Source of the DNA: Natronorubrum daqingense
GTDB lineage: Archaea; Halobacteriota; Halobacteria; Halobacteriales; Natrialbaceae
Assembly: GCF_001971705.1 (NCBI RefSeq)
Contig: NZ_CP019327.1
Location: 868,001 to 932,000, forward strand
DNA: 64,000 nucleotides
Reading direction: 5' to 3'
Made by a program: the position numbers and the translations under genes. The number at the start of each line of letters is the position of its first letter. Position 1 is the first letter of the stretch. Shown piece after piece: positions 40,377-57,778 of this stretch. Under the pieces are notes generated by a model. The model was given only the letters and a program-made list of their open reading frames with translations. It was not told the DNA's origin and did not search any database.

Positions 40377-40471
40377 CTGCGACATCCGCTGTCCGCACTA
40401 TCAGACACGCTCGAGTGAGACGTAACCGAGACTCCGGTGTGGTTTTTGGGCTCCCGGACGTACGTCTCGCT

Positions 40472-41197
40472 ATGAAAGTACGGGGCGAGCGCGAGTGCAC
40501 TGACTGTGGAACCCGGTGGTCGTACTACGAAACCGGCGAGATCGATTGCCCGTCGTGTGGAAGTCTCCACAGCGTCGGCATAAACGAACGTGCCGAACAC
40601 ACCGACCTCGAGGTGACGTTCGACCTCACGGGGGTTCGAAACGACCTCGACGAACACTCGAGCGACGACGTCGCAGACCGGGCGAGCGAGGAGTGTCGCG
40701 AGTACGTTCGTCGACGCGGCTTCATCGACGGTGGATCGCTGCGTGATCTGGACGACACGTACCTGAGCGCATTCGAGTTACTCCACGTCTCCGACATCGT
40801 CTCTCGAGACTTTCGCCTCGAGGAACGGGAGGAACTCTACTTCCTCTCCTTACTTCGCGACGCCGATCAGGGTGACCGCCCACCGGCAGCCGAAATTCCG
40901 CCGTCGCTTCGCAGCGCTCGCGGACTCGCCTACGCGACCGCCGTCGACGAATACCGCCGAGACGTTCGAACCTGGGTCGACAACGATACCCTCACGAGTA
41001 CCGAACGGGCCACCCTCGAGACGCTCGACGATCACGTCACGCGTGTCCGGATGCTCGATGGCGACGTCGCACCGGAACGAGCAGATCAACTGGTCGACGC
41101 CACACGCGACCTCGCGAGCGGACTCCGTGGGGACGAACAGGCCGTCGTACGGGCGCAGGATCGACTCGAGACACTCGAGTTCGACGACGCCGTCTAG
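40472..41197 (+). CDS. Conserved haloarchaeal protein with N-terminal zinc ribbon
   Basis: The 241-residue protein starts with a TFIIB-like zinc ribbon, ECTDCGTRWSYYETGEIDCP with SCGS (Cys at about 9, 12, 27 and 30), followed by an acidic helical domain rich in Arg/Asp/Glu, e.g. SAFELLHVSDIVSRDFRLEE and a VRTWVDNDTLTSTERATLET segment. Zinc binding and a role with nucleic acid or protein partners are plausible, but there is no named activity. The ATG at 40472 lies just before the ribbon; a longer frame from 40415 lacks support. Confidence 0.75.
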   Translation: MKVRGERECTDCGTRWSYYETGEIDCPSCGSLHSVGINERAEHTDLEVTFDLTGVRNDLDEHSSDDVADRASEECREYVRRRGFIDGGSLRDLDDTYLSAFELLHVSDIVSRDFRLEEREELYFLSLLRDADQGDRPPAAEIPPSLRSARGLAYATAVDEYRRDVRTWVDNDTLTSTERATLETLDDHVTRVRMLDGDVAPERADQLVDATRDLASGLRGDEQAVVRAQDRLETLEFDDAV

Positions 41198-43928: not shown

Positions 43929-45176
43929 TTACTCGTACAGCGGATTCGCGCCACAGAGGTCCTCAACTTCGCTCCGAACGTCTTCGATGACGGCTTCGTC
44001 TTCGGGGGCATCGATGACGCGGGAGATCAACTCACCGACTTTGCGACAGTCGTCTTCGTCGAAACCGCGAGTCGTCAGTGCGGGCGTGCCCGCGCGGATA
44101 CCCGATGGGTCGAACGCCGAGCGCGTCTCGCCGGGAACCGTGTTCCCGTTGAGGACGATTCCGGCGTCCTCGAGCGCTTCCTCCGCGTCGCCGCCGCTCG
44201 TGTCGGGGTGGCTCTCGCGGAGGTCGACGAGGACGAGGTGGTTGTCCGTTCCCTCTGAGACGAGCGAGAAACCGTTCTCGACGAGACGCTCGCCGAGGGC
44301 CTTCGCGTTGGCGACCGTCTGATCGGCGTACGCCTCGAACTCGGGCTCGAGGGCCTCTTTGAAGCCAACAGCCTTCCCGGCGACGTTGTGCATGAGCGGC
44401 CCGCCCTGTCCGCCGGGGAAGACGGCGGCGTCGATGTCGTCGGCGTACTCCTCGTCGCACATGACGATGCCGCCGCGACCGGCGCGAATGGTCTTGTGGG
44501 TCGAACCGGTGACGAAGTCGGCGGTGCCGACCGGCGAGGAGTGAACGCCCGCAGCGACGAGACCGGTGATGTGAGCGATGTCGGCGAGGTGGAGTGCGTC
44601 GACGCTGTCTGCGGCCTCCTGAATGCGCCCCCACTCGATCTCGCGCGGGTACGCGGAGTACCCCGAGACGATGATGTCCGGCTCGAACTCCTCGGCCTGT
44701 TCTGCGAGCCCCTCGTAGTCGACGTAGCCCGTCTCGGCGTCGACTTCGTACTGCTCGACGTCGTAGAGTTGCCCGACGAAGTTCGCCGGATGGCCGTGAC
44801 TGAGGTGTCCGCCGTGGGTCAGATCCAGCGAGAGGATCTTGTCGCCGGGCTCTAACATCGCGAAGTAGACGGCCTGGTTGGCCTGGGTGCCCGAGTGGGG
44901 CTGGACGTTGACGTGCTCGGCGCCGAAGAGCTCTTTCGCACGGTCGATGGCAAGTTGCTCGACCTCGTCGGCATACTCGCAGCCGCCGTAGTACCGGGAA
45001 CCGGGATAGCCCTCGGCGTACTTGTTCGTCAGCGCACTTCCCTGCGCGTCGATAACCGCCTGACTGGCGTGGTTCTCGCTCGCGATCATCTGCAGGGACG
45101 ATCGCTGGCGTTCGACCTCACCCTCGAGTGCATCTGCCACGGCGGGATCGACCTCCCGTACGTGCTCGTGTTCCAT
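43929..45176 (-). CDS. glyA: Serine hydroxymethyltransferase
   Basis: GlyA converts serine and tetrahydrofolate to glycine and methylene-tetrahydrofolate. The 415-residue PLP enzyme has SLQMIASENHASQAVIDAQG near 24, NKYAEGYPGSRYYGGCE near 47, NVQPHSGTQANQAVYFAM and the Schiff-base segment FVTGSTHKTIRAGRGGIV (Lys after THK). Sequence and length are typical. A TATA box lies 25-30 bases ahead of the ATG at 45176. It is divergent from the CHAT protease gene, with 225 bases between them. Confidence 0.97.
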   Translation of the reverse strand: MEHEHVREVDPAVADALEGEVERQRSSLQMIASENHASQAVIDAQGSALTNKYAEGYPGSRYYGGCEYADEVEQLAIDRAKELFGAEHVNVQPHSGTQANQAVYFAMLEPGDKILSLDLTHGGHLSHGHPANFVGQLYDVEQYEVDAETGYVDYEGLAEQAEEFEPDIIVSGYSAYPREIEWGRIQEAADSVDALHLADIAHITGLVAAGVHSSPVGTADFVTGSTHKTIRAGRGGIVMCDEEYADDIDAAVFPGGQGGPLMHNVAGKAVGFKEALEPEFEAYADQTVANAKALGERLVENGFSLVSEGTDNHLVLVDLRESHPDTSGGDAEEALEDAGIVLNGNTVPGETRSAFDPSGIRAGTPALTTRGFDEDDCRKVGELISRVIDAPEDEAVIEDVRSEVEDLCGANPLYE

Positions 45177-45401: not shown

Positions 45402-47510
45402 ATGATAGAGTGGGCGATGGGCGATAATACGCTCCGTGTGACGGACGCCGACAACACCGAACTGTCGGTACACGGTGAGACGCTCGTCGTCGACGGCCCA
45501 GGTCCGGACATCCCGCGCCCCGTCGACGAGACGGTCGTCGTTACGACGGACGAACTGCGATTCCCCCACGCCGTTACCTACGCGTGTTCACTCAGCACAA
45601 CAGCGCAACACGAACTCGATCCGGACGGCACCCCGCTGTCGCTCGCCCCCGACGAGTACGTCGTCGATATCGACGCCGAGATCAAAACGTACCTTCGATT
45701 CTCCGGCAGTGCGACCATTTCGAAGGCCGGTGGCTACGAAGAAACCGTCGTTACCTTTCCCGAACGGACCCGCGTCATCGTCGGCTTTCGGAGTCGTCAC
45801 GAACTTCCGACGGAGACGATTACCGTCCCCGACTCGCCGACCGAACTTGCAACTGCGATTTCCCACCTCGCTACAGCACACAAAACCGACAGCCCGGATC
45901 GCACGTACCCGACACTTCGAGGCCACCCACCGCTCCTCGAGCGCGGCAACCACCTCGAAATTCCCGACACCGTCCGCGAGAAGCGTATCGACACCGGTAT
46001 CGAACTCCTCGTACCAGCCGACTACGAGACGCTCTACGTGATCGCACCCCTCGCCTACTATCTTCAGGCGACGATCGTCCCGTTCGATGCCCGCGGAACC
46101 GAATCGAACGAACCGACGCTTCGTTCGACCGACGGGTCGATCGAAACGCAACTCTCATCGATGCCCAAACTCGAGCGAGACGTCGAACAGTTGCTCCGAA
46201 AGGCGTTTTTCCTCGATTGCCTCGTCCGGAACGTCGGTCTCCACGGTACCGATCTGGCCGAACTCAACGTCATCGACGCGCTCGGAGTCGACGCACAGGG
46301 GCTCTACGATGCCCCGCCACGGGAACGACTCGCCGCGTACCTCGACGTTCCCTACGCTGCAATCGAACACCGACTCCCGGATTGGCACCTCTCGACGTAC
46401 GTCGCCCCGACGTACGATACTGTCGAGGCCCTCCCGTTCCTGCTCGATCGGATGAGCATGATCTACATGCCACAGACATCCGAACTCGAGGGGAAAGAAC
46501 TCGTCGAACGATCGCTCGAGGACTTCTACCGCGCCGGTCGTTCTCCCGAAAACGCGGACACCAGGGGTGCAATGAACGGTGCCGTCGCGTCCGTCGATAT
46601 CGTCAAACCCGACCTCAAAACAGGTCGCGTCCACGGATGGCTCGCCGACGGTGTTCCAATCGACGTCTTCAACACGACACCGGAGGCCTACCACAATCGA
46701 CTCGAGTACATCGAAGGCCCGAGTTCGACGACGTCGATCTGTATCGTGTTGAACGATCCCGAGATGGCCTGCGAACACGATGACGTCGCCAGTATCTACC
46801 GGCAACGATCGTCGGAGCTCTCGATGGACGTCACCGTCCTCGAATCGCTTACGTCGAGCGAACTCGCCCGTGTGTTCGAAGCCGACCACGACTTCGTCCA
46901 CTACATCGGCCACTGTGAAACCGATGGACTTCGCTGTACGGACGGCTCGCTCTCGACCTCGAATGTGGACGAATCAAACGCACAGACCTTCTTCCTCAAC
47001 GCGTGTGGCTCCTACTACGAAGGGGTCGATCTGATCGAAAACGGCAGCGTGGCCGGTGCAGTAACGTTTCAAGAAGTTCTGAACGAACACGCGGTCAAAG
47101 TGGGCTCGATGTTCGCCAAACTGCTCGTCCACGGATTCAGTTTCGAACGCGCGCTTCGCCTCGCACGCAGACGAATCATGATGGGCAAAGACTACGCCGT
47201 CGTCGGCGACGGAACTCACTCACTTGTCCACGGTGAAAACCAGCTTCCGATTACGATCACTCTCGAGGCACTCGACGGTGAACCCTCGAGGTACTTCGTG
47301 ACGTTCGATTGTTACTCGACACGAGCAACGGGGTCGTACTACTACCCCCACACCGAAGAAAACGAGTTTGCGTACCTCAGCGGGACACAGTCGAACATGA
47401 CGCTCACCTCGAGTGAGGTTGCAACGGTCCTCAAGGAAACAGACGCGTCGGTAATTTACGACGGCGACGTCTACTGGTCGAACGATATCTGGTCGCACTT
47501 TGTCCAGTAA
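45402..47510 (+). CDS. CHAT-domain (caspase-like) protease with unknown N-terminal region
   Basis: The 702-residue protein has a CHAT domain (clan CD cysteine peptidase fold) at about residues 400-620. The catalytic His is H504 in FVHYIGHCETDG and the Cys is C535 in FFLNACGSYYEG; both agree with the CHAT motifs xHFxGHG and LNACxS. Preceding strands SICIVLNDPEMA and a DVTVLESLTSSELARVFEAD segment, and the following GAVTFQEVLNEHAVKVGSMF and GFSFERALRLARRR helices also fit. Residues 1-400 and the beta-rich tail (~620-702) have no recognised domain; no signal peptide or TM helix is seen, so it is cytoplasmic. It might cleave a specific host protein when triggered. The ATG at 45402 was chosen; 45417 is possible. 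Confidence 0.8.
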   Translation: MIEWAMGDNTLRVTDADNTELSVHGETLVVDGPGPDIPRPVDETVVVTTDELRFPHAVTYACSLSTTAQHELDPDGTPLSLAPDEYVVDIDAEIKTYLRFSGSATISKAGGYEETVVTFPERTRVIVGFRSRHELPTETITVPDSPTELATAISHLATAHKTDSPDRTYPTLRGHPPLLERGNHLEIPDTVREKRIDTGIELLVPADYETLYVIAPLAYYLQATIVPFDARGTESNEPTLRSTDGSIETQLSSMPKLERDVEQLLRKAFFLDCLVRNVGLHGTDLAELNVIDALGVDAQGLYDAPPRERLAAYLDVPYAAIEHRLPDWHLSTYVAPTYDTVEALPFLLDRMSMIYMPQTSELEGKELVERSLEDFYRAGRSPENADTRGAMNGAVASVDIVKPDLKTGRVHGWLADGVPIDVFNTTPEAYHNRLEYIEGPSSTTSICIVLNDPEMACEHDDVASIYRQRSSELSMDVTVLESLTSSELARVFEADHDFVHYIGHCETDGLRCTDGSLSTSNVDESNAQTFFLNACGSYYEGVDLIENGSVAGAVTFQEVLNEHAVKVGSMFAKLLVHGFSFERALRLARRRIMMGKDYAVVGDGTHSLVHGENQLPITITLEALDGEPSRYFVTFDCYSTRATGSYYYPHTEENEFAYLSGTQSNMTLTSSEVATVLKETDASVIYDGDVYWSNDIWSHFVQ

Positions 47511-47900: not shown

Positions 47901-48719
47901 ATGGCCTCGAATTTACTCAACCACCAGATTGACGATATCCTCGAATCTGTTCTCGAGGATGCATCTGGGGACGTATACATGGTTAATCCGTCCGCAGATG
48001 CGATCGAAGAGTTCGTTTCCGTCGCGACCGCATTCGACGGCGAGTTGCCGTCGGTTCACATGCTCGCAGACGAGCGAACACTCAAAGATGTGATGGGCGA
48101 CTTCATCATCGCCTCGAACGCTGCCGACCTCATCAGCGAGGACGCACTCGCACTTCGCACGCTCGAGCAAGCACCCGAAAACTCGCTTTTGAGCACCGAC
48201 GAACGCGTCATCGCGATCGTTCACGCCGGCGACCGCGTCGGCGGCCTCGTCACCGACGAAGAGAGCTTCGTCGCCGACACGTACGACACGTACGCCGGCC
48301 GCTGGGAGGACGCCACCCAGTTCAACCTCCGGACGCCACCGATCACGGACGTCCAGGAGACCCTCGCCGACGAGATCAGTCCCGAGGCAGAGGAAGATTT
48401 CACCTCGATCCTCAACTCGCTCGAGACCGCCCGCGGCGACGGCGACGGCCTCGACGAAGTAACCATTTCGCTGCTCGTCGCGGCGAAGAACGAGGCCCTG
48501 CTGTACGACATCAGCAAGTGGGGTGAAGACGTCGGCATCGCGTCCAAAGCAACGTTCAGCCGAACCAAGACCAAACTCGAGGACATGGGTCTCATCGACA
48601 CCGAGAAGGTTCCGATCGACGTCGGTCGCCCGCGACTGCGCCTGACGATCGGCGACGATCGACTCCGCGAGGCGGACAACGGTCAGCTCGCGACGGTCGC
48701 GCAGTCGATTCTCAACTAA
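47901..48719 (+). CDS. tbsP: Transcriptional regulator TbsP (DUF5821)
   Basis: The 272-residue protein matches the haloarchaeal regulator TbsP, reported to act together with TrmB-type control of sugar metabolism and gluconeogenesis. It starts ASNLLNHQIDDILESVLEDA, has VHMLADERTLKDVMGDFI near 55-72, DEVTISLLVAAKNEALLYDI near 190-209 and the winged-helix part SKATFSRTKTKLEDMGLIDT near 216-235, ending in IDVGRPRLRLTIG. The HTH at the C-terminus should bind DNA. Function assignment rests on family knowledge; targets in this organism are not visible. Confidence 0.88.
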   Translation: MASNLLNHQIDDILESVLEDASGDVYMVNPSADAIEEFVSVATAFDGELPSVHMLADERTLKDVMGDFIIASNAADLISEDALALRTLEQAPENSLLSTDERVIAIVHAGDRVGGLVTDEESFVADTYDTYAGRWEDATQFNLRTPPITDVQETLADEISPEAEEDFTSILNSLETARGDGDGLDEVTISLLVAAKNEALLYDISKWGEDVGIASKATFSRTKTKLEDMGLIDTEKVPIDVGRPRLRLTIGDDRLREADNGQLATVAQSILN

Positions 48720-52560: not shown

Positions 52561-52875
52561 CTACCCTCGGTGGAACCCGATCAAAAACCCGCTCGTGAAC
52601 CCGGCCCCGACCGAAAGCATCGAGAGGACCGACTCGAGCCAGTGAATTTCCGCTTGTGCTCGTTCCTGCGTTTCGACAAGGCCCGCTGAGAGACGGTTCC
52701 AGTCGACGGCGACGATATCCTGTGACTCGAGATATCGAAACGCCATCAACTGAATGCCGATAATAATGGCGACGAGGGTGGCAACCTGCTTCGTCGCAAA
52801 TCCGAGAACCGCACCGATAATCGCACCTCCGGCAAACTCCAGGCCGAGCGTCGACGGATCGATATCTACAACCAC
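52561..52875 (-). CDS. FUN14-domain membrane protein
   Basis: The 104-residue protein has a FUN14-like core: PSTLGLEFAGGAIIGAVLGF with ATKQVATLVAIIIGIQLMAF, then VLSMLSVGAGFTSGFLIGFH, two to three membrane helices with Gly-rich packing. Eukaryotic members sit in mitochondria; the archaeal role is not known. The GTG at 52875 begins the protein (VVVDIDPS); a longer frame to 53043 contains many Cys and His and no family support, so I do not use it. Confidence 0.82.
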   Translation of the reverse strand: MVVDIDPSTLGLEFAGGAIIGAVLGFATKQVATLVAIIIGIQLMAFRYLESQDIVAVDWNRLSAGLVETQERAQAEIHWLESVLSMLSVGAGFTSGFLIGFHRG

Positions 52876-53218
52876 GGTTTCACATATGTGCCAATGACAA
52901 TTACTGTTGTGGTTGAAACCGACGCCGTCCCCCATTTCTGACGGCAAATGGGACGCGCATTTCACCGATTGGACGACTCGTGAGTGTGACTTGAGCATGG
53001 GATTCAAGACGCTCGGACACGTATTCACGCGTATGGTCAGCATTCGTCCAACGGAGGTGTTCGCCCGACATCGTTTCGAGTGACGGCCAGCGGATGTCTC
53101 GATCGATACGTCGAGACGAACGGTGGGCTAGCGAAGGATCGTCGTCGTCCGGAGAGCCCCACGTCTCGCGAACGGACGGACACGAGTCCGAATCGACTAC
53201 GACACATTCGAGGTTTGT
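52876..53218. other. Intergenic region between divergent genes
   Basis: The 343 bases lie between the FUN14 gene (minus) and hflX (plus). A 7-bp perfect stem CCCATTT/AAATGGG (52931-52937 and 52946-52952) is the only visible structure. The area around 52875-52920 is AT-rich and likely carries the FUN14 promoter. No gene found. Confidence 0.4.
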
Positions 53219-57115: not shown

Positions 57116-57778
57116 ATGGATGGTGAACCAATCGATGGTGTGTCATCGGAGGCGAGTTTCGGACAGACGCTCGCAAAACTCAAACGAAACGGTAGCAATA
57201 TTCTGATCGTCGGCACGGATGCGTCCGAACTCCACACGACCCTCTGTCGTCGGTTGTGTGGCGGCGTCGATGCACCCTCGCGATATCGACTCACTATCAC
57301 CGATTCAGATTCGACGACGAAACCGTGTGCTCACTCGAGTATCGACGCGCCAGATCACACCCGTACGATCGACGTGACAGCGGCCACACCGTCGACACGG
57401 GTAGGTGGCGACACCTCCGACCAGACACCGCTCAAAACGCTCGGTCTCGAGAGTAACGATGCGATCGAGGAACTCGAAGAGCGTGCGGACGGGTTCGAAC
57501 CCGCCTCGCTTCGCGTCTGTCTCGATTGCCTCCAGCGGTTATTCGACGCACAGCCACGAGACGACGTGTTTCAGTTCCTCCACCTGCTCACCGCTCGAGT
57601 CGATTACTATAACGGGATGGGCCACTATCACCTCCCACTCGAGCGCACCGACGAACTGGTTCGTCTCCTCGAGCCACTGTTCGACGTGCTCGTCGAAATC
57701 CGCTCTCGGCGCGGAACGGACGAACATCGCTGGCAGTTTCGAGACGACGGAACGACGACCGAGTGGCTAGCCTTTTGA
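57116..57778 (+). CDS. Haloarchaeal protein with degenerate P-loop-like start (DUF7504-like)
   Basis: The 220-residue protein begins with FGQTLAKLKRNGSNILIVGT and DASELHTTLCRRLCGGVDAP, resembling haloarchaeal proteins in which a KaiC-like nucleotide-binding strand has lost its Walker A Gly-Lys-Ser/Thr. A CLDCLQRLFDAQPRDDVFQF segment and a LLTARVDYYNGMGHYHLPLE segment follow near 135-175. It may be a signalling or regulatory protein; the function is unknown. The ATG at 57116 is the likely start. It is the first of a plus-strand group with the MrfB-like gene, 125 bases apart. Confidence 0.65.
   Translation: MDGEPIDGVSSEASFGQTLAKLKRNGSNILIVGTDASELHTTLCRRLCGGVDAPSRYRLTITDSDSTTKPCAHSSIDAPDHTRTIDVTAATPSTRVGGDTSDQTPLKTLGLESNDAIEELEERADGFEPASLRVCLDCLQRLFDAQPRDDVFQFLHLLTARVDYYNGMGHYHLPLERTDELVRLLEPLFDVLVEIRSRRGTDEHRWQFRDDGTTTEWLAF

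Follow-up and report, generated by a model that had tools for sequence, protein, structure and literature searches.

Among the caspase-fold cysteine proteases described so far, Csx29 carries a pseudo-caspase domain (CHAT1) in front of an active one (CHAT2), and its catalytic residues are rearranged upon activation (PMC10028731). Metacaspases were reported from just 5 of the 114 archaeal genomes surveyed (PMC3501461). A caspase-like activity is on record for Haloferax volcanii that is stress-linked, high at the basal level and widespread in Archaea, with no recognised gene behind it (PMC3615174). Literature searches, with most subscription journals outside their scope, returned no prior report of a haloarchaeal CHAT protease or of DUF7504. 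The locus considered here lies in the window, i.e. the whole stretch of 64,000 nucleotides of Natronorubrum daqingense DNA that was analysed. An open frame at 45402-47510 on the plus strand encodes 702 residues, with H504 in HYIGHCETDG and C535 in FFLNACGSYY at the positions given in the original prediction; the neighbours are also as claimed there, a divergent glyA upstream and tbsP downstream on the same strand. The features are as follows, in window coordinates and with the evidence in parentheses:

45402-47510, plus strand: CHAT-like protease gene, 702 residues (open frame and family distribution).
43929-45176, minus strand: glyA, conserved divergent neighbour (annotation and synteny).
47901-48719, plus strand: tbsP, conserved downstream neighbour (annotation and synteny).
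45402-45827, plus strand: N-terminal all-beta domain, residues 1-142 (secondary structure of the model).
45837-46586, plus strand: middle alpha/beta region, residues 146-395, possibly a pseudo-caspase half (alignments and model).
46587-47237, plus strand: caspase-fold (CHAT-like) domain, residues 396-612 (model and Foldseek).
46911-46913, plus strand: codon of His504, predicted to be catalytic (alignments).
46914-46916, plus strand: codon of Cys505, marker of the glyA-tbsP clade (GHC) (member comparison).
46935-46937, plus strand: codon of Cys512, kept in 143 of 144 members (member scoring).
47004-47006, plus strand: codon of Cys535, the predicted nucleophile (alignments).
47238-47507, plus strand: C-terminal beta-rich extension, residues 613-702 (model).
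57116-57778, plus strand: CHAT-associated DUF7504 gene, a candidate trans partner (tree and position).

The window protein and its orthologues align from a common methionine (MIEW...), which supports the call of the start codon and, together with Ka/Ks values of about 0.11-0.22 against orthologues, identifies a real gene under purifying selection. Members of the family are present in 54 of 61 relatives and in 180 of the 194 genomes of the order (ca. 93%; the set comprises genomes of the same order with a completeness of at least 95%), and with these Ka/Ks values a chance open frame is thereby ruled out. Two paralogues of the protease are encoded elsewhere in the genome.

The structure of the full 702 residues was predicted from a 67-sequence alignment (pLDDT 89.4, pTM 0.88) and compared with the PDB by Foldseek. 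The top match was SAVED-CHAT (8tl0; 2.4e-8), followed at lower ranks by separase (4.8e-7), gingipain R (2.4e-6), and the caspases, including caspase-3 (about 1e-3). In the predicted model H504 comes directly after strand 496-502 and C535 after strand 527-533, each right behind a core beta-strand of the caspase fold, so that the model places the two residues where the catalytic dyad of that fold is found. Sequence models are far less responsive, and the standard protein-family models mostly miss the family. A Pfam scan of the window protein gave nothing beyond noise and left the CHAT model PF12770 unmatched, a PF12770 scan of the window genome gave zero matches, and neither an NCBIfam scan nor a single-sequence PDB search with the window protein returned anything useful. 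Scanned singly, 18 of the 67 relatives reach PF12770 at E<=1 (best 1.9e-5), and a profile of the family picks up the SAVED-CHAT chain 8tl0 in the PDB weakly (E=1.8), in an alignment where the cysteine of the LNAC motif pairs with C535. We file the protein as CHAT-like and leave membership of PF12770 unclaimed, because the sequence model fails to match the window protein. The CHAT-like caspase-fold domain with a His/Cys dyad put forward in the original prediction is thus upheld by the PF12770 matches in relatives, by Foldseek and by the conservation of the dyad. As far as the two refuting outcomes named there could be assessed, the homologues retain the pair, and the model sets either residue at its expected place behind a core strand.

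Both dyad residues are kept in 139 of the 144 members scored and both are lost in five, with no member having lost only one. The members without the dyad come from three distinct places in the tree, namely a degenerate subgroup (the copies at locus L114 and that at L117), L171, and L140. A catalytic pair would be expected to be lost in this way, together and never singly. Most dyad-less copies retain the remaining invariant residues, which suggests that the parts outside the active site serve some purpose in themselves too, e.g. as regulators. Such copies could also be taken to mean that the protease activity of the family has been lost and that the fold now acts as a scaffold or signalling module; the predominance of members with both residues and the lack of any with one alone make this very improbable. 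At L114 (5604-12540, minus strand) three family copies stand in tandem in one genome, and in all three the catalytic His and Cys are replaced by Glu and Pro. C512 is kept even in most of the dyad-less copies and in the distant members, and its role may be structural, metal-related or redox-related.

The part in front of the caspase fold is conserved as well: R173, P176, L265, R276, P326, and W328, all within residues 146-395, are invariant in the alignments. Modelled alone, residues 1-398 reach a pLDDT of 90, and a PDB fold search with this part found no confident relative and no caspase relative, the best match being a weak one to a glycoside hydrolase beta-sandwich domain (E=2e-3). A sugar-binding role for the N-terminal part was considered and dropped, as glycoside hydrolase beta-sandwich matches were weak only. 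For the N-terminal beta domain no known relative was found in the PDB fold search. In the model the strands and helices of residues 200-380 follow one another much as in an inactive half of caspase-like type, although the region alone matches no caspase; by analogy with Csx29, the middle region may be an inactive pseudo-caspase half.

The family is a core haloarchaeal component, mostly vertically inherited and divided into two clades. Among 197 genomes of the phylum, members outside the order are distant ones, confined to one further family (four genomes), and three of these four keep the dyad. Plasmids and megaplasmids carry members too (25 records), for the most part under the label hypothetical; one bears the name caspase family protein and another CHAT domain-containing protein. 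In the tree, a glyA-tbsP clade, with 30 of 30 sampled members at that locus, is separate from a paralogue clade; the window gene falls in the former, to which three dyad-less relatives are sister. The order glyA (divergent), protease, tbsP is found in nearly all orthologous loci fetched with enough flank, from Natrialbaceae through Haloarcula, Halorussus, Halarchaeum, and Salinigranum. Of the genomes that have no glyA-tbsP copy, tbsP was located in 11, and in 7 of these glyA and tbsP are still adjacent, which amounts to a clean presence or absence of the protease gene at this site and shows that the protease is dispensable in the lineages missing it. These protease-free loci, with glyA and tbsP adjacent and divergent, are L207, L208, L209, L211, L212, L213, and L216. 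A gene for a DUF7117 protein (40415-41197, plus strand) recurs near the locus in many relatives, and the window also holds a gene for a small membrane protein of the FUN14 family (52561-53043, minus strand; 2.1e-16). In one paralogue group (L119, L120, L161, L162, L163, and L178) two neighbours of about 250 and about 150 residues recur with no Pfam match; they looked like shared synteny of that group.

The two clades also differ next to the predicted catalytic histidine. C505, which turns the motif into GHC, occurs in 91 of 91 glyA-tbsP members and in only 3 of 46 others, where the motif is mostly GHI or GHV. The suggestion that GHC marks a distinct subgroup is confirmed by these counts, and together with the tree they bear out the original idea of an uncharacterised haloarchaeal family that contains such a subgroup.

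CHAT proteases are known from defence, and the family's paralogues differ in copy number, form tandem arrays and sit on megaplasmids, as might be expected if the protease served abortive infection against viruses in the manner of Craspase or the gasdermin activators of bacteria. We consider such a function quite unlikely for the present protein, given the fixed site of its gene, with glyA and tbsP as neighbours and the proteasome/RNase P gene cluster alongside, and given the presence of the family in 93% of the genomes. The viral contigs searched encode no relative of the family, and no gasdermin, CRISPR or toxin neighbour was seen. Membership in an anti-phage defence system was rejected, with no match to a PADLOC model and no defence-gene context. 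The link to defence or programmed death drawn at the outset is accordingly left unsupported by the blank PADLOC result, the absence of relatives on viral contigs and the fixed housekeeping locus.

It had also been stated that no partner gene is adjacent. This holds for the locus itself, where only glyA and tbsP lie directly beside the protease gene; it does not hold for the paralogues, which often adjoin a DUF7504 (PF24336) gene, and another gene of this kind lies within the window. In the paralogue clade 20 of 39 members adjoin DUF7504, vs. 0 of 30 in the glyA-tbsP clade; in most cases the DUF7504 gene comes immediately before the protease gene on that strand, the matched regions being 27-200 bases apart. 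Five DUF7504 genes occur in the window genome, two of them beside its two protease paralogues. The one in the window is not adjacent, lying 9.6 kb downstream of the protease gene; it clusters in the tree with the CHAT-adjacent type, apart from the common stand-alone DUF7504, and in 15 of the 24 genomes tested a gene of the window type likewise lies downstream on the protease strand, at a distance of 8.8-14 kb. Near some DUF7504-linked paralogues there is a gene for a HalX response regulator (L113: 6884-7582, minus strand; L159: 7516-8208, minus strand; L174: 2341-3831, plus strand), and a class I aminotransferase gene recurs upstream of some of them. A degenerate RecA/KaiC-like fold for DUF7504 is left unclaimed; the DUF7504 profile, compared with solved structures, matched none.

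The homologue search for co-occurring genes that had been proposed yielded an association: CHAT-type DUF7504 is present in 120 of the 180 genomes with the family and in 0 of the 14 without it (Fisher 6e-7, relatedness ignored), and in a smaller genome set in 44 of 54 vs. 0 of 7 (relatedness again ignored). In some genomes, e.g. G022 and G034, the glyA-tbsP copy is present without any CHAT-type DUF7504. The dependence is thus one-way: CHAT-type DUF7504 needs the protease family, and the reverse is untrue. The protease might be an ordinary, always-active housekeeping enzyme with no dedicated partner, its association with DUF7504 reflecting shared history only; that the glyA-tbsP clade never adjoins DUF7504 and that several genomes have the protease alone would fit, while the complete absence of CHAT-type DUF7504 from all 14 genomes without the family and the wide recurrence of the adjacent arrangement across the paralogue clade speak against it, and on the whole we judge it improbable. 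The DUF7504 gene in the window is the best candidate partner for the glyA-tbsP copy, a link that we infer.

The reading we hold to be fairly probable is that of a cysteine protease, passed on vertically, that is gated and site-specific and has DUF7504 as its regulator, its activity being predicted. The protein would be a cysteine endopeptidase of the cytoplasm with a caspase fold of CHAT/separase type, in which Cys535, activated by His504, would attack specific target proteins, one or a few in number, at a peptide bond. Residues 1-395 probably keep the protease off until a signal repositions them, comparable to the non-catalytic parts of Csx29, and the CHAT-type DUF7504 is probably a regulator, adaptor or substrate, either bearing or transmitting the signal or being cut by the protease. 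A housekeeping or stress-linked function is more likely than an antiviral one.

Stress also enters a different explanation, by which the caspase-like activity of haloarchaea would stem wholly or partly from this protease, which would act in stress-induced self-killing. The activity in Haloferax volcanii has all the traits named above and no recognised gene (PMC3615174), and the present family is a widespread haloarchaeal caspase fold with an intact dyad, in about 93% of genomes, which makes it a candidate source of that activity. The explanation as a whole nevertheless seems unlikely to us, as CHAT-type proteases are not known to share the substrate preference of metazoan caspases and the locus shows no linked death gene. 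Returning to the gated protease, we offer tentatively the broader proposal that haloarchaea possess a two-gene system of regulated proteolysis, in which a caspase-fold protease, its N-terminal beta domain being of a kind seen nowhere else, is switched by DUF7504 and one copy became fixed between glyA and tbsP early in the order; such a system may explain the orphan caspase-like activity.

Searches with metacaspase models found few archaeal caspase relatives (PMC3501461), and the members of the present family are mostly annotated as hypothetical. The family now provides a concrete gene, point mutations and a candidate partner to test, and a tractable core system in which to approach the roles of CHAT- and separase-type proteases in archaea beyond CRISPR. 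Since a distinct set of small partner-like genes occurs only in genomes with the family, the protease may be such a switch, one that cuts proteins under regulation, and this can be put to the test.

Of the known systems, the metacaspases and orthocaspases (PF00656) share the caspase-type His/Cys dyad, and dyad-less copies are described among them too (PMC6426788); PF00656 matched neither the window protein, which is therefore not a metacaspase, nor anything in the window genome. Gingipain R (RgpB) and the caspases have the caspase-type fold and the position of the dyad in common with the window protein but differ in domain make-up and biology, with no sequence relation found in PDB searches. 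Separase (5fby, 5fc2, 7nj1) likewise places a caspase fold with His/Cys behind a long N-terminus (Foldseek 4.8e-7 to 1e-4); here too PDB searches detected no sequence relation to the window protein. With Csx29/TPR-CHAT of Craspase the window protein possibly shares a large N-terminus, an inactive followed by an active caspase-like domain, and a gated His/Cys pair (PMC10028731). The protein and its locus differ from that system in having no TPR match, no Cas7-11 and no Csx30, the linked gene being DUF7504. SAVED-CHAT (8tl0; PF12770) is the top Foldseek match and shares the His/Cys dyad and the LNAC cysteine equivalent to C535. Whereas SAVED-CHAT has a SAVED domain and a CRISPR context, neither of which was found here (the former by Pfam and PADLOC), the window protein carries an N-terminal beta domain that has no counterpart there and is encoded by a chromosomal core gene.
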